The notes under the pieces were generated by a model, which searched no databases, was not told the origin of the DNA, and saw only the letters and a program-made list of their open reading frames with translations. Of a stretch of 62,941 nt of DNA, positions 6,201 to 52,790 are shown piece after piece. The stretch covers positions 1-62,941 of the forward strand of contig JAUWMT010000011.1 of NCBI GenBank assembly GCA_030613025.1, written 5' to 3'. A program made the position numbers and the translations under genes. This DNA comes from Candidatus Cloacimonadota bacterium (GTDB taxonomy: Bacteria; Cloacimonadota; Cloacimonadia; JGIOTU-2). Positions within the stretch are counted from its first letter, which is position 1. Every line of letters begins with the position of its first letter.

Positions 6201-9200
6201 CCAGGAATATCAAGATCATCTATATACATTCCAGCATACTCAACAACGGTTGTTGCATAGAATGAAAAGACTACTTGCACATTTGCCACTCCGTCATAGG
6301 CGGAAAGGTCAAGATCTGCGTATTCCCAAACTGTGCCGGGATAGGAATCGATGGTCAGGAGAATGTCACTATTAACGATAACATCGCAATAGTCCCAATC
6401 TCCAAATATATCAGACCAGTACCAGAAATTAAGATAAGCATCTGTTACACTGGAGAAATCAAAGGTCTGGCTCATGTAAGATGATCCACCGGAGTTGGTG
6501 TAGTCACCATTAACCTTGGTTGCCCAGAGACCTGTTCCTGAATGGGCTGCTGGAGGAGGTGAATTAGCGCCTGTATAGTTGGCTACATCATACGTATTCG
6601 TCCACTCCCAGTCACCGACAGGATCCCAGTCTGCTGTGGCTACCCAGCCACCGTCTGTGGTCTCAAAGTCTTCGACATCTCTCTTGTTATAACGAATAGC
6701 TGAACTATCCTGAACAAGAATGATGAAACGATCACTTTGTACACCCATGTTGGTTACATCATATGTGTATTGAATGGAGTTACCCGCTGCAACATAATCT
6801 GAAGCATAGTACGGATCAACTGAGAAATTGATCGGAAGATATGGAGCAGGCATTACAACATTATCAAGCCCAACTCCACGGGATTCACTATTCACCTCAC
6901 TGCGATGACGCCATCTGACCTTCGCATCGTTGCCAATGTATGTGTCAGGAATTAGCACAATTGCTTCTTCGTAGTCATCCATGGGGGCATCTGAGGTAAA
7001 CATACCAATAACTTCCCACTCGGGTGTTGTATTAAGATAAGTATTGGAAATTTCAACCCAGAGTGTGTCTCCGGTAATGACTTCCGTTCCCTTGGCTTCA
7101 TAAAGATTATCATTTCTCCAGAAGAAGTCGATGAAGTCACCACCACTGATGACAAGACGTGGGGACATGAGGATCGCATCTACATCATGATACCAGCTAA
7201 CACGTGCATAGCCCTGTCCCTCATAGGCATCAGTCATGAAGCGTGCCCAGTAGTCACCTGGATTATCCCAACCAAAGGGAGGGAACATCGTCTCTTCAAA
7301 GCCCTCCATCACATAATCAGTACCTTCGATAATTACACTAAGGTCGATCATGGCAGGTTCGGGTGCGTTGGTCTGAAATTCAAGAACGTCTGCATATACG
7401 CCGAGAGCGGAAGTATCTAGAGAGATAGTAGCAATCTCAGATCCACTAGGTAAAACCGAATCAGGATATACGCATGAGAATGGTGCATCGACTGTGACAT
7501 CATTGATGTAAAGCATTCCACCACCATTATTGAAGATGGTTACATCCCAACTATCAACGGGTTCACCTTCTGTAAGCCAACCAAAATCATGAGTAGTATC
7601 ACTTAAGGCAATTACCGGCACTGCTGGAATCACTTCCCAGGATACATCATCAATATTGAAATAATCATATGTTCCGTCCAAACCATGCTTGATAGCTACA
7701 TATCCTGTAGATCTCATTGTTGTGATTGCTACAGTATGCTCAGAATAGACGTTTGTTACAGCACAAGAAGCCACTTCTGTAAATGTGGAAGGATCCGATG
7801 GATCAGTCATAGTACCAACTATTAAATACTGGGTTCCGGAACTACAGCGACCCCAAAATTTCAGAAAGTTGCCGGTCGGTGCTGATTCTAAACCAGGTGT
7901 GATCAGTAACAAATCTGCCAAGAGGTCATTGCCGTTATACATTCTGGCATTCATTATACCGGAATGTGAATAGGTTGCACTCTCCCACGTTTTAACATAG
8001 GCATATGTAGTTGTGGACTGCACGATATTTGACCATTTGTCCGGAAGGTCAGGTTCTACACAGGTTTCAAAATCCTCAAAGAAGGTAATATAAGGTGCAT
8101 ACGCGCTGGATGCGATAACATTGGCAGCGAAGATCGTGGGATCGCCCTGTGATGTGGCTGTAAAGGTCACAGTATCAGAGATATCTTTTGCTACAGGAGA
8201 AGTAACTTTAACAATAACGGTATCGACTTCGTTTGCATTAATTGCAATCGAAGAAATCGTACCGGTATCATTCTTATCTCTGATATCATAGGTCCAAGTG
8301 CCACCTGTTTCAGTAAGATCATAAGTATCATTATTCGTACCAATATTTTGAATCTCAAGGAAATAATTAAAGGGTACACCTTCAATAATCTCAGCATCAG
8401 GGGTAAGCTGATCAATAGCAACATTATGAGGTAGAATTTCTACCCATGAAACATCATCAATATAATCAGAGTCATAAGATCCGTCATTTGCATGTTTCCA
8501 TGCAACATAACCAGTTCCTTTTGCAAAATTAACTACATATTCAAATTCGGTATAAGTGGTTGTAACTCCAAATGTTTCAATGGGGGTAAATGTTGATGGA
8601 TCAGTTGGGTCTGTTATTGTACCAACTATAAAGTTTTGTGTGCTCCCACTTCTTGACCAGAAGCTTAATTTATTACCTCCAGGACCTGAAGCCAAAGCAG
8701 GTGTAATAATTAGAAGTTCTGCTGAAAGATCGTTATAGTTGTACATCTTGCCACTCATCAGCCCAGAATGTGCATAGGTCGCGCTTGAATTAGTTCTCAC
8801 ATAGGCAGAAGAACTTGAGCTCTGCACGATCTTTGACCACTTGTCTGGAAAGTAAGGTTGGACACAAGTCTCGAAGTCTTCAAAGAAATTTGCTAATGGG
8901 ACATATACGGTTGTCGTTACATCGATACTCTTAAAGAGCGTTGGATCTCCTTGTGAAGTAGCAGTAAAGGTTTCAACCTCACTAATATCTTTTGAAACAG
9001 GAGCAATAACTTTGAGAATAACTGTATCTGCTTCACTCGAATTAATAGCAATACTTGATATAACACCTGCATCATTTTTATCACGTATTTCATAAGTCCA
9101 TGTGCCACCTGTTGCAGTAAGATCATAAGTGTCATTATTCAAACCAACATTTGCAACCTTGATGAAATAATTAAAGGATTGTCCTTCAATAATTGTAGCG

Positions 9201-18970: not shown

Positions 18971-19059
18971 ATCAAATTTTATATTCGCATATTTTCAATT
19001 TTCAATAATTGATGTCCCTATTATCTTTTGAGTATCTATTTGGAGTAGTCGACTTCGCA

Positions 19060-19213
19060 GACTGGACTTCATCGCGAAGCAGGTGGAGTTCAGAATGCAA
19101 GCAAACAATCGGAAGATCAGCAAGCTGAACATTCCGATGTTTCACAACCCGCAACCCGCAACCCACAACCCGCAACTCGCAACCCGCAACCCGTTTCCGT
19201 CTCAAGTCCAGTC
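19060..19213. repeat. MITE-like element with 7-bp minisatellite, copy 1
   Basis: This 154-bp element has perfect 10-bp terminal inverted repeats, GACTGGACTT at 19060-19069 and AAGTCCAGTC at 19204-19213. After a unique part of about 80 bp it holds seven tandem copies of a 7-bp unit, consensus CAACCCG (variants CAACTCG, CAACCCA), ending in TTTCCG. A second copy with ten units lies at 19640-19814. It contains no gene: frames that run through it only translate the 7-bp unit into RVAGCEL-type repeats. It is likely a non-autonomous mobile element or intergenic repeat. Confidence 0.8.
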
Positions 19214-19578: not shown

Positions 19579-19639
19579 ATATTTTTCTTTTCAAATGAGA
19601 TATAAACTGTCAACTTATTTTTATGTGCGCATCTTCGCA

Positions 19640-19814
19640 GACTGGACTTCATCGCGAAGCAGGTGGAGTTCAGAATGCAAGCAAACAATCGGAAGATCAG
19701 CAAGCTGAACATTCCGATGTTTCACAACCCGCAACTCGCAACTCGCAACCCGCAACCCGCAACCAGCAACTCGCAACTCGCAACCCGCAACCCGTTTCCG
19801 TCTCAAGTCCAGTC
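19640..19814. repeat. MITE-like element with 7-bp minisatellite, copy 2
   Basis: This is the same element as 19060-19213, with perfect 10-bp inverted ends at 19640-19649 and 19805-19814. The minisatellite has ten 7-bp units instead of seven, which accounts for the whole 21-bp length difference. The two copies are direct repeats flanking the nucleotidyltransferase gene. The right end lies 9 bp from the stop codon of the downstream lipoprotein gene. Confidence 0.8.
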
Positions 19815-23752: not shown

Positions 23753-23920
23753 GTTCCCAAACAGGGGCTTGGGAATAAGTGCATTTTTTGTTTTTTGATT
23801 ATTAGATTTTTCGTTCCAAAGCCCACATAAACTCTCGTTCCCAAGCCCCCGCTTGGGAATGCTTTTCTCTCGTTCCCAAGCACAGCAACTTTCTCGTTCC
23901 CAAGCCCCTGCTTGGGAACG
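23753..23920. repeat. REP palindrome cluster on one side of the RAYT gene
   Basis: Three full palindromes of the type GTTCCCAAGC-GGGG-CTTGGGAAC occur at 23753-23777, 23834-23861 and 23893-23920, with a half site at 23869-23880. Arms are 10-11 bp and usually preceded by CTC. The same palindrome recurs on the other side of the transposase gene and at 52.36, 52.52 and 52.69 kb. This is the expected arrangement of a REP family beside its own REP-associated transposase. The 78-codon minus-strand frame across it is a translation artefact. Confidence 0.85.
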
Positions 23921-23933
23921 CTGTTTATCTTTA

Positions 23934-24473
23934 CTACAAATCAAGTTCATCAATCTTAAAAGGATTATTTTTTCCAGCAAAATTTCTTACACTGGAATAA
24001 TACCATTCCTCCGGTTCGGTAACAAATCCTCTCTTCACCGGATTGAAATGAATATAATTAATTTTCTGAAGCAACATATCGGTATTGTGTACTAATTTTG
24101 GGTGACTTCCCTCTTCCCATAATTGATATGTGGAATCTACTTTATATGATTTCTTGAACATTTTCAATAAATCCAAAATGTCATTTTTCTTATCTTCTTT
24201 GAGTAATGAAATAATTTCTTTGGCAGTATAACTTTTTAGATTTTGAATAATTTTTCCAATCTCTTTTGGATGAGATACGATCATATGTAAATGGTGATCC
24301 ATAATCATATAGTAAAATATTTTCAGACCCTTTTTATTTCTATAATAATTAAAATTTTCGATTAAAATATCACAATATCTTGGATCTGTAAAAATTTGTA
24401 TTTTCCCTACAACAGCACATGTAATAAAATACAAATGACCTTGAATGTTATCGAACTTATATCTGCTTCGCAT
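23934..24473 (-). CDS. REP-associated tyrosine transposase (RAYT, IS200-like Y1 family)
   Basis: The 179-residue protein is a Y1/HUH single-strand transposase: MDHHLHMIVSHP holds the HUH metal-binding histidine motif, and the KSYTAKEI segment is near the expected position of the catalytic tyrosine. The C-terminal IHFNPVKRGFVTEPEEWYYSSVRN is characteristic of the RAYT/IS200-like family. I start it at ATG 24473 (MRSRYKFDNIQ); the frame is open 36 codons further upstream, but that part only translates REP sequence. It is flanked on both sides by REP palindromes, its probable substrates. It is likely a domesticated, non-mobile copy that disperses REPs. Confidence 0.9.
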   Translation of the reverse strand: MRSRYKFDNIQGHLYFITCAVVGKIQIFTDPRYCDILIENFNYYRNKKGLKIFYYMIMDHHLHMIVSHPKEIGKIIQNLKSYTAKEIISLLKEDKKNDILDLLKMFKKSYKVDSTYQLWEEGSHPKLVHNTDMLLQKINYIHFNPVKRGFVTEPEEWYYSSVRNFAGKNNPFKIDELDL

Positions 24474-24484
24474 TATTAATTTGT

Positions 24485-24690
24485 GTTCCCAAGCAGGGGC
24501 TTGGGAACAAGAATATTTGAGGGTTTGGGAACAAGGTATTTTTTGTTTTTTGGCTATTAAATTTCTCGTTCCGAAGACCACATAATCTCTCGTTCCCAGC
24601 TCCTTCTACGATCTCGTTCTCAAGCATAGTAACTTTCTCGTTCCAAAGCCCCTGCCTGTCTGGGCGGAGTGAAGCGGAGACTGGCTTGGG
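24485..24690. repeat. REP palindrome cluster on the upstream side of the RAYT gene
   Basis: A perfect palindrome (GTTCCCAAGCAGGGG then CTTGGGAAC) occupies 24485-24508, followed by several half sites. At about 24637-24690 lies an extended form in which the two arms are separated by an insert reading CTGTCTGGGCGGAGTGAAGC and then GGAGACTGG. The extended form recurs at 37491-37543. The 90-codon frame across this region (24457-24729) is not a gene. Confidence 0.8.
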
Positions 24691-24739
24691 AATGTTGTTT
24701 TCAAAAATAGGAATCATGAGCGTCATCATAGAAAGAATC

Positions 24740-37230: not shown

Positions 37231-37593
37231 TTAGACTGCTTGATTTACTTTTTTGATTATGCTGTCTGCTGCGGCGATTATTTTTGTGTATCGGATGTCA
37301 TCCAGGATAGTGGAACTTTTTGCGTAGTGGGCGATGTAAGAATCTGATAGGGAATAATCAAGATCCAAGTATGAGCACACCATTGCTTTGACCGATTCGG
37401 CTTCTGTTTCTTTTACTGATTTTGAGAGATTGCATTCAATGCGGTGCAGGATGGAGTGACCAAGTTCATGAAATAAGGTCCTTAGTTTGTCATTCCCGAG
37501 CCCCTCTGTCGGGGCGGAGTTAACGGAGACTGAATCGGGAATCCAGTTTTCTTTAGTGCTTATGATTATAATCAACATAAATCTGTGTCCCAT
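37231..37593 (-). pseudogene. Metallopeptidase remnant (ArdC/ImmA-like) with an in-frame REP element
   Basis: The second half of this 120-codon frame is a zincin-type peptidase fragment: LRTLFHELGHSILHRIE holds an intact H-E-x-x-H, followed by KETEAESVKAMVCSYLDLDY and YIAHYAKSS, the pattern of ArdC-associated or ImmA/IrrE-like proteases. The N-terminal two thirds of such proteins are missing. Codons about 18-36 (WIPDSVSVNSAPTEGLGND) translate the extended REP element at 37491-37543, so the frame stays open through an inserted repeat. The short upstream segment (MGHRFMLIIIIS) is not family-like. It is probably a decayed gene, although the fused small protein could still be made. Confidence 0.7.
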
Positions 37594-49800: not shown

Positions 49801-52282
49801 TGCCTTTATGAACAGACCCATCCCAGAATCGCTAGGACCTTCTCCAATGATCGCTGCTTTCTGGGATGACCTAAAAACCACCGGCAGCAGTAATATCTGC
49901 TACTATTACAATTCCAGTTCCCATTATTTTGTTGTTGAATGGTCTCATATGAGCAATGATTACAATAATGCTGAGGAAACTTTTGAGGTTGTGATCTATG
50001 ACCCCTTGTATTATCCAACTCCTACGGGTGATTCCGAAATATTATTTCAATATAAGGTTTTTAATAACGTAAATGCAGGATACTATTCGGGATATATTCA
50101 GCATGGGGAATATGCAACTATTGGTCTGGAAGATCATTCTGGACTTGTTGGTCTTGAATATAGTTTCTGCAATTCCTATCCTACTGCAGCAAAAACTCTA
50201 ACCCATAATTCAGCTATTTTCTTTACAACACGGGGTACAGAAGTACTTGATCCGCCAATTGCTGGCGTGACGCCTTTAGAATTCACCTTTGTGCTGGAGC
50301 AGGGACAGACGGGCTCTGATGTGCTGAGTATTTCTAATACCGGTGAATCCAATCTGATATATTCTATTGAAAAAGATTACAATATCGACCGCGATGCAGG
50401 CGGACCTGATAGCTATGGTTATATGTGGACTGATTCCAATGAACCTGGCGGTCCTGATTATGATTGGATAGATATCGGCGGAATCGGTACACAGGTTACA
50501 TTCACTCATAATGATGTGGGCTCAGGTCCATTTAATATCGGTTTTGATTTTGAATTTTATGGTGAAACCTATGATGAATTTATCATCAGCCCCAATGGTT
50601 GGATTGGGTTCGGTGTCGATTGGACTGATTATCATAACTACTCGATACCTCGTAACGATGCACCAAAACCTGCTATCTTCGGATTCTGGGATGATCTTGA
50701 TCCTCTTCAAGGTGGTAATGTGTATTATTATACAAACAGCACAGATAGTCTGATTGTCTGGTTCGACCATGTGATCCATTATCCAGGTGCGCAAAACGGC
50801 ACTTATGATTTTGAGATAATTATTACAAGTGATAATGGGATTAAACTCCAATACCGCTCACTTAGTGGTAATCTCAATTCCTGTACAGTTGGAATTCAAA
50901 ATGAAACTGGTTCGGTCGGTTTGGAAGTGGTGTATAATGATAACTATTTACAGAATAATCTCGCAATCGAGTTTTATAGAGTCATTGACTGGCTAACAGT
51001 TGATCCTTCTGGTGGAGTTGTTTTCGAAAATGATACACAGGATATCGATATTACGGTAGATACTGGCGAGCTTGAATATGGACAAAATTACCAGTGTGAT
51101 CTCTATCTCACGACTAATGATCCCAACCTCAGCCAAATCGTTATACCGGTGTATTTAACAGTAGGAAATATTGATGAAGGTACCGTACAGGGTATTGTCA
51201 CACTTCTTGGTGGATCATCCACTCCTGATAATGTTACCATTGATATAGGCGGCATGACAATCTATCCGGATGAGATAGGATACTTTGAAGCGGTTATTCC
51301 TGTGGGCAACTACACTTTAGAAGCAACCTGTCCCGGATATGATAGCTATATTGAAGATATTGAAGTATTGCTTAATCAGACCACAGTAGTAAATCCTGTT
51401 CTGGAATACATTGAAGCACCTGAGAATGTATGGGTTGAACTCTCTGAAGACTACCGTGCTACAATAGTTTGGAACAGTGTTTCGCAATACACAGATTCCA
51501 AGCTTTTTCAATCCTATACTATTGCCAGACAATTGGATAACGGAGACTGGATAATTATTCAAGAAGGATTAGCAGACACTTCCTACATTGATAATCTGTA
51601 TAGCCAATCGGATGGGGAATATAAGTATGGTGTAAAAGCTGTGTACGAATTCATGCAAAGCGAGCTTACTCAATCCGACGTCCTTCCGATCTTCCGTTTT
51701 GTGGATGTCCAGTTTGAATTTACTCTATCTGATGGTCAGACACCACAAGGGATTTTTCTCAACTTAACAGGTCAGGATACGGTCTATGCACAAGTATATG
51801 AAGATTCAACTCATGCAAGCGGTATTTTGTCCTATACCGATGTTTTCATGGCTGATTATCATCTTACTGCAGAAAAAGTAGGTTATGAATCTGTCGATGA
51901 AATAATAACGATAAATGCTGAAACAACGAATTTTGAGTACACACTCCAATATGTTATCGCAATCGGAGACGAGCCGGTTCCTCTGGTAAGTAAGATCGAG
52001 CAGAACTATCCGAATCCCTTCCATATATCTGGATTTTCACGCGGGGGAACCGAGATCAATTATCACGTGCATAAAGCGGCTAAGGTTCGCGTAGAGATAT
52101 TCAATATCAAAGGAGAACGTGTTGCTATTTTGGTTAATGAAAGCATGATAGCCAGTTTATATTCCACCACATGGAATGGTCTTGATGATCACAATAAAGC
52201 AGTAAGTTCAGGGATATATTTTTACAGATTGATGCTTGATAATACTACCATAGAAAGCAAAAAGTGTGTTCTTATTAGATAA
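46841..52282 (+). CDS. C25 (gingipain-like) family secreted protein with type IX sorting domain
   Basis: The ATG at 46841 has GAGGAA seven bases upstream and gives signal peptide MKKTLIVLILSFICFSYVNA; an upstream ATG at 46826 is less likely. A C25-type propeptide region (to about residue 220) is followed by the peptidase-like domain. The catalytic Cys region is present (VIPTCGTGDFEGTNDCESEY, Cys near residue 460), but the His motif reads YRGWLGMSGW with Trp where the paralogue has His. Later modules are Ig-like repeats, two nidogen-like modules (FYGRFYHEITVCTNGW and FYGETYDEFIISPNGW), a carboxypeptidase-regulatory-like module, a fibronectin III-like stretch and the FlgD-like sorting domain (YPNPFHIS, FNIKGERV, SGIYFYRL). 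It is probably exported; peptidase activity is uncertain. Confidence 0.9.
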   Translation: MKKTLIVLILSFICFSYVNASSSETVALSQDEKVMKCQFSDLKVSELRFELPDFEQTLLNEKNVEYTKISIPTEGALMLEGYPDLPVISRLIAIPSQGSVSYEIENIYEEVISNVEIYPYQVENRTSVNFQRNEKIYNGNEPYPAEIISISEPQIMRDLRLVRVTIQPFQYFPETKELRIIKNADVRITTSGTSGMNEKSSHRKISRFFEPLYKSMILNYEEIFRDVEYQEPSYLFIYPTDATVAAYLTYITDWKHQKGFHVETADLAHTGSSLSQIKAFIQNAYDTWAYPPEFICLVGDAGGSYNIPTGYYSGGEGDQYYTLLEGNDILADVFIGRLSFNSLLEFQTIINKLLSYEKTPYMTNTDWYKKALLVGDPSTSGPSCVSNCKFVKEVMQAYSNEYDFDEIYSSPFVSGIANSINNGVSYFNYRGWLGMSGWGNSNTAALNNGYMLPFVVIPTCGTGDFEGTNDCESEYFLKAGSPSTPKGAIAAIGTATMSTHTTFNNCISGGVFTGVFRDRIFNPGGALVRAKLSLYNSYPTNPNNWIECYAYWTNLMGDPGMELWTGVPIQLEVTHPTMVAVGTNNIEITVRNTYGFVIEGAWVTILQEGDNIFESGYTDSNGKVLLPINTSITGSVIVTVTKHNHIPYISEFLILQANSFASISQTTIDDDNSGSSSGNNDGLVNPGEDIELIISLKNHGNNDLYNVTATLETNDPGVTITDNAENFGVINANQTVQCADDFDFSVDADLLGGAEIWFDLIITDNESHEWIDRFSIPINGANLDFVECTILDGDDGILNPGETAQLIITLRNSGSVSAQAVDGLLLSNDDTIIINDSLGFWGVIYPDDTSTNNTNTFEVYADTQVIPGSQFQLPLHLTNSAGYDDQITVTLEVGIVDVGDPLGPDAYGYYCYDDEDTDYSIAPYYSWIEIDPDYGGNGTVLSLYDGGDDGDIATIDIPFSMKFYGRFYHEITVCTNGWLAPGGSEEFAFMNRPIPESLGPSPMIAAFWDDLKTTGSSNICYYYNSSSHYFVVEWSHMSNDYNNAEETFEVVIYDPLYYPTPTGDSEILFQYKVFNNVNAGYYSGYIQHGEYATIGLEDHSGLVGLEYSFCNSYPTAAKTLTHNSAIFFTTRGTEVLDPPIAGVTPLEFTFVLEQGQTGSDVLSISNTGESNLIYSIEKDYNIDRDAGGPDSYGYMWTDSNEPGGPDYDWIDIGGIGTQVTFTHNDVGSGPFNIGFDFEFYGETYDEFIISPNGWIGFGVDWTDYHNYSIPRNDAPKPAIFGFWDDLDPLQGGNVYYYTNSTDSLIVWFDHVIHYPGAQNGTYDFEIIITSDNGIKLQYRSLSGNLNSCTVGIQNETGSVGLEVVYNDNYLQNNLAIEFYRVIDWLTVDPSGGVVFENDTQDIDITVDTGELEYGQNYQCDLYLTTNDPNLSQIVIPVYLTVGNIDEGTVQGIVTLLGGSSTPDNVTIDIGGMTIYPDEIGYFEAVIPVGNYTLEATCPGYDSYIEDIEVLLNQTTVVNPVLEYIEAPENVWVELSEDYRATIVWNSVSQYTDSKLFQSYTIARQLDNGDWIIIQEGLADTSYIDNLYSQSDGEYKYGVKAVYEFMQSELTQSDVLPIFRFVDVQFEFTLSDGQTPQGIFLNLTGQDTVYAQVYEDSTHASGILSYTDVFMADYHLTAEKVGYESVDEIITINAETTNFEYTLQYVIAIGDEPVPLVSKIEQNYPNPFHISGFSRGGTEINYHVHKAAKVRVEIFNIKGERVAILVNESMIASLYSTTWNGLDDHNKAVSSGIYFYRLMLDNTTIESKKCVLIR

Positions 52283-52293
52283 ATAAAGGTTAA

Positions 52294-52790
52294 ATATGCC
52301 ACAAAGACAGGAAGATTCACAAAGAAGAATTAACTGGATTGTCTTTTAATTTTAAGTATTCCCAAGCAGGTGCTTGGGAACGAGAAGTTAATTTAACTTT
52401 GTATATTCTTCGTGATTTTGAGACTTCGTGGCAACAAGGAAAAAGAAATAAAATATGCCACAAAGACCCGAAGACCCAAAGATTCACAAAGAAAGTTCAA
52501 CGGATTTGAAGTTTAATTTTAAGCATTCCCAAGCAGGGGCTTGGGAACGAGAAGGTAGTTTGAATTTGTGTATTCTTCGTGATTTTGAGACTTCGTGGAG
52601 TGTGTTCTTATTAGATAAATAAAGGTTAAATATGCCACAAAGACTCGAAGATTCACAAAGAAAGTTCAAGGGATTTGAAGTTTAATTTTAAGCATTCCCA
52701 AGCAGGGGCTTGGGAACGAGAAGTTAGTTTGAATTTGTGTATTCTTCGTGTCTTTGTGCCTTAGTGGCAAAAAAAAGTTTCCACAAAAGT
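52294..52790. repeat. Threefold intergenic repeat with central REP palindromes
   Basis: Three units of about 140-180 bp begin at 52294, 52454 and 52631, each with TATGCCACAAAGAC. Each has an outer inverted arrangement: GCCACAAAGAC-like at the left and TTCGTG...TTTGTG...GTGGCA-like at the right. In its middle is a REP palindrome (52358-52384, 52524-52551, 52693-52720). Before unit 3, the last codons of the upstream peptidase gene (TGTGTTCTTATTAGATAAAT and the following spacer) are duplicated at 52599-52630, which shows a tandem duplication event. No gene is present in this 532-bp spacer. Confidence 0.85.

Follow-up and report, generated by a model that had tools for sequence, protein, structure and literature searches.

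The extended REP beside the RAYT gene of this Cloacimonadota contig was found to be an ordinary REP palindrome into which a 30-nt hairpin of another repeat family had been inserted exactly. The insertion was clean, the ends of the element were constant, its targets were fixed in strand and its hairpin was under selection. Judged from its sequence, the 30-nt unit is probably (about 0.55) a minimal, non-autonomous mobile hairpin of single-strand style lodged in a REP loop, possibly moved by a RAYT as the putative enzyme. The window, i.e. the whole stretch of DNA analysed (62,941 nt), comprised the entire contig C60 of a genome of 2.83 Mb in 98 contigs, and genome-wide copy numbers were obtained by pattern searches with the reversed pattern as control. 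The features of the window are as follows.

23753-23776, unstranded: REP palindrome GTTCCCAAACAGGGGCTTGGGAAT, with one arm mismatch
23837-23860, unstranded: REP palindrome
23872-23881, plus strand: REP half-site, with the next full REP 24 nt downstream
23896-23919, unstranded: REP palindrome, the paralogous empty counterpart of the extended REP
23934-24473, minus strand: RAYT (REP-associated Y1/HUH tyrosine transposase), 179 aa, by NF047646 and Pfam Y1_Tnp
24485-24508, unstranded: REP palindrome directly upstream of the RAYT start
24616-24625, plus strand: REP half-site, with one mismatch
24640-24654, plus strand: 5' half of the host REP, GTTCCAAAGCCCCTG, by empty-site alignment
24655-24684, plus strand: nested 30-nt hairpin element CCTGTCTGGGCGGAGTGAAGCGGAGACTGG, a clean gap against the paralogous array and L090
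24685-24693, plus strand: 3' half of the host REP, CTTGGGAAT, by empty-site alignment
37489-37504, plus strand: 5' half of the CGTC-type palindrome hosting the second copy, GTCATTCCCGAGCCCC
37505-37533, plus strand: second element copy, 29 nt, with a one-base deletion at the loop; same kind of host at L016 and L025
37534-37546, plus strand: 3' half of the CGTC-type palindrome, ATCGGGAATCCAG
52358-52717 (52358-52381, 52525-52548, 52694-52717), unstranded: three more REPs, one per tandem unit of ~168 nt

The RAYT gene was placed between miaA and purH. Its protein matched the NCBIfam model NF047646 REP_Tyr_transpos with 103 bits (cut-off 80) as well as Pfam Y1_Tnp, and could be aligned with E. 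coli TnpA-REP (4ER8) over YI.NPVK. Its membership of the RAYTs rested on the curated-model match together with the HxH motif (DHHLH) and the catalytic-tyrosine motif (YIHFNPVK). The closest relatives were found in Cloacimonadota (50-86%) and Ignavibacteriae (44%); the nearest ones named were Candidatus Cloacimonadota MAGs, one of which, Cloacimonas sp. 4484_140, also had the neighbouring genes. Inverted arms of 51 nt (23869-23919 and 24485-24535, 82% complementary) enclosed the gene, and the composite REP arrays on its two sides were related as direct duplicates. As the preliminary description had stated, the gene was flanked by GTTCCCAAGC...GCTTGGGAAC palindromes, four of them full (one with an arm mismatch), and by half-sites at 23813, 23872, 24523, 24566 and 24616. 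The locus is a REPtron, in which a RAYT gene is accompanied by REPs of its own.

Further copies of the palindrome were present elsewhere in the genome, in a modest population: the perfect form TTCCCAAGCNNNNGCTTGGGAA occurred 12 times in 2.83 Mb against 0 for the reversed pattern, six of the 12 being on the window contig, and the looser pattern TTMCCAAGN{6,36}CTTGGKAA gave 35 matches against 1, so that the palindromes are not due to chance. Several arm variants coexisted (GTTCCC, GTTACC, TTTACC and GTTCCCAAAC), and in the last three the change was matched on both arms; this coexistence is a different matter from the extended variant named earlier. The inverted REP flanks of the window RAYT resembled those of known REP/RAYT systems (PMC2817692, PMC8266576). 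However, the classical REP definition includes a GTRG head at the 5' foot of the palindrome (PMC2817692), whereas the REPs here, in the window and elsewhere, mostly carried CTC or TC 5' of the stem and none had GTRG. Their number, 12 perfect or 35 with arm variants and longer loops, was also below the more than 100 copies that are usual according to PMC2817692.

Other repeats were seen in the same DNA. Three tandem units of ~168 nt lay between two large ORFs at 52263-52773, each with a REP enclosed in a longer, imperfect inverted repeat (GCCACAAAG ... CTTCGTGGC). REP half-sites repeated in tandem every 24 to 30 nt (TCGTTCCCAAAC; CTCTTTACCAAGCCCCAGAACACCA) were observed on contigs C26, C29 and C71 of the genome (G000) and upstream of the L086 RAYT. 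Direct repeats of 141 nt (19053-19193 and 19633-19773 of the window, 96%) with (CAACCCG)n-like tracts flanked a 108-aa nucleotidyltransferase ORF (PF01909).

The RAYT model matched 15 times in the genome, which corresponded to about a dozen RAYT/Y1 genes (loci L070-L084). Inspection of these loci showed at least nine adjoining different palindrome families of their own, for example CTTTGCGAAAG, GAGTCG and GTTCGGGTTTA. The Ignavibacteriae relative of the window RAYT (44% identical) carried a GTTCCCAACG...CGTTGGGAACG palindrome, which fits RAYT and REP staying together. In two genomes, type IIG (Eco57I/MmeI-like) methylase genes were observed to contain an in-frame RAYT/Y1 domain, located at a different point of the methylase in each (L076, G000:C8, around 7375-7767; L234, G111:C4:709-1017), and the L234 domain was bordered by the peptide repeats TGIPACD, TGIPTCE and TGILACN, which resemble translated palindromes.

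The preliminary description had reported the extended form at two sites and had taken it as a sign of two REP subtypes in one genome. Both extended palindromes exist (about 24637-24693 and 37489-37546), but only the insert is common to them: the 37491 copy is not the same palindrome repeated, because its host arms are ATTCCCGA/TCGGGAAT and not GTTCCCAAGC. The subtype claim had to be abandoned, since the extended form was an ordinary REP interrupted by exactly 30 nt of another repeat family, for which paralogous and orthologous empty sites were available. Alignment of the two arrays of the window left a single clean gap, 30 nt long and located at the extended REP, the empty paralogous array being 0.75 kb away. 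The same gap, CCCCTG[CCTGTCTGGGCGGAGTGAAGCGGAGACTGG]CTTGGG, was obtained against the orthologous purH-RAYT-miaA locus L090 of Cloacimonas sp. 4484_140. Exact 30-nt empty/filled pairs were also formed by L087 and L126, which come from two genomes and have nearly identical flanks, and by L063 and L066, two places within the genome. The empty sites of the window pairs, L087/L126 and L063/L066 were all clean, with no target duplication. Such gaps at both paralogous and orthologous sites indicate that the extended form is an insertion and not a subtype. REP loops held other inserts at the same spot as well: an unrelated stretch of ~200 nt (CAGCCTGTGTGAAAATGG...) was observed in L087 (around 2750-2970) where L071 has the 30-mer, and upstream of RAYTs in L049 and L088 the loops contained other unrelated inserts, including a short AT-rich palindrome.

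With the core pattern CGNARYGNARYGNAGMC, about 118 copies of the element (consensus CYTGYCNSGGCGTARYGNARYGRAGACKGR) were detected in the genome, where the reversed pattern matched once, and 102 contexts with 83 unique 30-mers were used for analysis. Conservation started and stopped sharply across the 30 nt, the information content falling steeply outside, and a 4-nt 5' tag (CYTG), a mismatched stem and an invariant GNA loop were distinguished within. The core pattern fixes letters at several positions (0, 1, 3, 6, 8, 11, 13, 14 and 16), so independent evidence could come from variable positions only. The top correlated positions were the nested pairs -3/17, 5/9, 4/10, -6/19 and -5/18, and in all five the observed Watson-Crick pairing exceeded that in each of 2000 shuffles. 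Among the 83 unique copies the Watson-Crick share was 90% for 4/10 (shuffle maximum 66%), 96% for 5/9 (70%), 81% for -6/19 (66%) and 64% for -3/17 (49%); the covarying pairs -6/19, -5/18 and -3/17 lay outside the search pattern. When the partners were slid by 1-3 nt, standard pairing dropped from 95% to 16-48%. The stem mismatches were constant at 1/13 (G.A) and 3/11 (A.G), in 83/83 copies each, and mostly G.A at -1/15. Standard DNA folding energies computed for the element were not unusual, so the hairpin structure rests on covariation. A search of the region for named Rfam families returned only sub-threshold eukaryotic miRNA and snoRNA matches. As a dispersed 30-nt unit in about 118 copies with compensatory changes in its hairpin, the element resembled the SDR elements of cyanobacteria. 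In three copies (G000:C36:13613, C94:56261 and C40:82993) another palindrome was observed in place of the apical hairpin or as an extension of it (TCCGCCAGCTGGCGGA; TCCGTCCCGACTAGTCGGGAA).

The element was frequently inserted into itself. Of the 102 copies, 24 were self-nested, each in precise register at one fixed point of the 5' stem (GGCGT^A), and removal of the inner 30 nt restored the complete outer element; the nesting was three levels deep on contig C73. Five further species of the genus also showed self-nesting, and there the reversed control gave 0. At least eight copies were located in REP-type or CGTC-type loops, and further loop copies, such as the window's own, were classed as 'other' because of arm mismatches only. 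Nested insertion in itself as well as in both kinds of host palindrome was again SDR-like. About 40 copies were found at YG^TG sites, and the remainder were partial nests or at other sites. The orientation was uniform, with 24/24 nested and 8/8 scored REP-hosted copies in one direction and 0 in the opposite one; this strand-specific insertion without target duplication is of the IS200/IS605 type. Comparison of the flanks by host type revealed no conserved tetra- or pentanucleotide 5' of the insertion like the guide-paired one of IS200/IS605-type elements, the 5' flanks varying with the host (CCCTG, CCCC, TTTCG, CTCTG, GGCGT), and no common target sequence was found among the copies compared across host types. 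Palindrome loops as the sole target were not supported, as the YG^TG sites were not in recognisable hairpins (upstream inverted arm in 3/34, control 1), and loops are therefore not the whole rule. Most copies were intergenic: 4/42 lay inside ORFs of at least 120 aa, although 73% of the surrounding DNA was coding (P about 8e-18). One of these four, at L027, extended a long ORF by ten in-frame codons.

The distribution of the element across the phylum was uneven. A stricter element pattern was detected in 28/125 genomes, with 0 for the reversed control throughout. The genomes of the window's genus contained 107, 88, 30, 21, 21, 5, 0 and 0 copies, one of the two zero genomes being only 64% complete, and element-bearing genomes outside the genus had 1-10, so that high copy number was limited to this genus. 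Searches of two Ignavibacteria(e) genomes and one Daejeonella genome gave no match to the element. RAYT matches were present in 27/28 genomes with the element compared with 68/97 without it (Fisher P 0.0025, confounded by relatedness), and the median number of RAYT matches was 10 versus 1, shared ancestry being ignored. RAYT-rich genomes without the element, such as G096 (19 RAYT matches) and G111 (6), indicated that RAYTs alone do not predict it. That the element is the own REP of one particular RAYT was not supported: no RAYT was found to have it on both sides, and only a few had one copy nearby.

These observations are consistent with a mechanism in which the element would move non-autonomously, as one DNA strand folded on itself. 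Cutting and rejoining of the hairpin would fall to a Y1/HUH transposase, for which one of the numerous RAYTs is the likeliest candidate, and the loops of extruded palindromes may serve as one favoured, single-stranded target, which would explain the nesting. A broader proposal, possible but at present tentative, is that a self-nesting DNA hairpin of 30 nt, among the smallest mobile elements known, may be copied strand-specifically by RAYT-type HUH enzymes into the single-stranded loops of other REPs, including those flanking RAYTs, and may thereby build multi-level nested palindromes in Cloacimonadota.

Mobility via an RNA copy, by reverse transcription or template switching at a primer-like site with the RAYTs as bystanders, is a rather unlikely competitor. 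The size, compensatory changes and self-nesting of the element recall what is reported of SDR elements, no target is duplicated, and no RAYT was found with the element as its own flanks. However, strand-fixed insertion at palindrome loops suits single-stranded-DNA machinery, and the genomes rich in the element are also rich in RAYTs. A GNA triloop with a covarying closing pair, as present here, is also commoner in DNA than in RNA hairpins. Less probable still is replication slippage or template switching at hairpins with no dedicated enzyme, in which nesting would reflect fork stalling at palindromes. Insertions at palindrome loops, nested copies and the 24-30 nt tandem arrays of half-sites beside REPs would agree with it, but it does not readily account for the sharp constant ends, for the fixed insertion site in the element together with non-palindromic YG^TG sites, or for copy numbers ranging from 107 to 0 in one genus. 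Divergence of one palindrome family into long and short forms, i.e. a true subtype, is hardly credible. It could draw on the array that the extended REP shares with normal-sized ones next to the RAYT, and on the location of extended forms directly 5' of two further RAYT genes (L071, L086). It is refuted by the empty-site alignments, in which the orthologous as well as the paralogous sites differ by exactly 30 nt; against it stand also the recurrence of the 30-mer in unrelated palindromes, in YG^TG sites and within other copies of itself, and the near-identical loci L087 and L071, whose REP loop holds a different insert in each.

The closest known relatives in kind of the mobile hairpin proposed here are the cyanobacterial SDR elements and REPs. 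Elhai et al. in 2008 are said to have described SDR elements (SDR1, SDR4) of Nostoc and its relatives as dispersed hairpins of 21-27 nt with compensatory changes, reportedly nested in their own copies and in other small repeats, and spread via an RNA copy is said to have been proposed for them. The present element shares with these, as reported, its tiny size, dispersal, compensatory hairpin, self-nesting and presence inside other repeats. It differs in phylum, sequence and length (30 nt), in its GNA loop, G.A mismatches, CYTG tag and REP-loop insertion beside RAYTs, and in that exact orthologous empty sites were demonstrated. An origin independent of the Nostoc SDR families is assumed. The SDR work is cited in PMC3116915 and PMC3733652. 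Like REPs, the element consists of a short 5' tag and an imperfect hairpin, with stem mismatches as needed in group 2 REPs (PMC2817692, PMC8266576), but its tag is CYTG rather than GTRG and it was not found as a RAYT's own flanks. The host palindrome at 37489-37546 (TGTC + ATTCCCGA ... TCGGGAAT + CCA) fits the CGTC-tagged REPs of PMC3733652; in the window it is merely the host, the insert being a separate family. Insertion of REPs into palindromes, giving the GTAG-15, GTAG-23 and CGTC-1 dimers (PMC3733652), and ISs that target REPs (PMC1525189) provide a precedent for mobile DNA targeting palindromes, while fixed-register self-nesting and a single hairpin of 30 nt are not described in the portions of these two papers available. 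A literature search for Cloacimonadota palindromes and self-nested small repeats retrieved nothing relevant in the literature covered, which does not prove absence.

The spread of REP-like hairpins is still poorly understood. The element is so small that it has barely room for more than a recognition structure, and it would therefore be a natural minimal substrate for asking how such hairpins spread; orthologous empty sites, fixed orientation and self-nesting make the question testable. These results also caution that REPs of differing size can owe the difference to a nested insertion and need not be subtypes, and they extend SDR-like behaviour beyond cyanobacteria.
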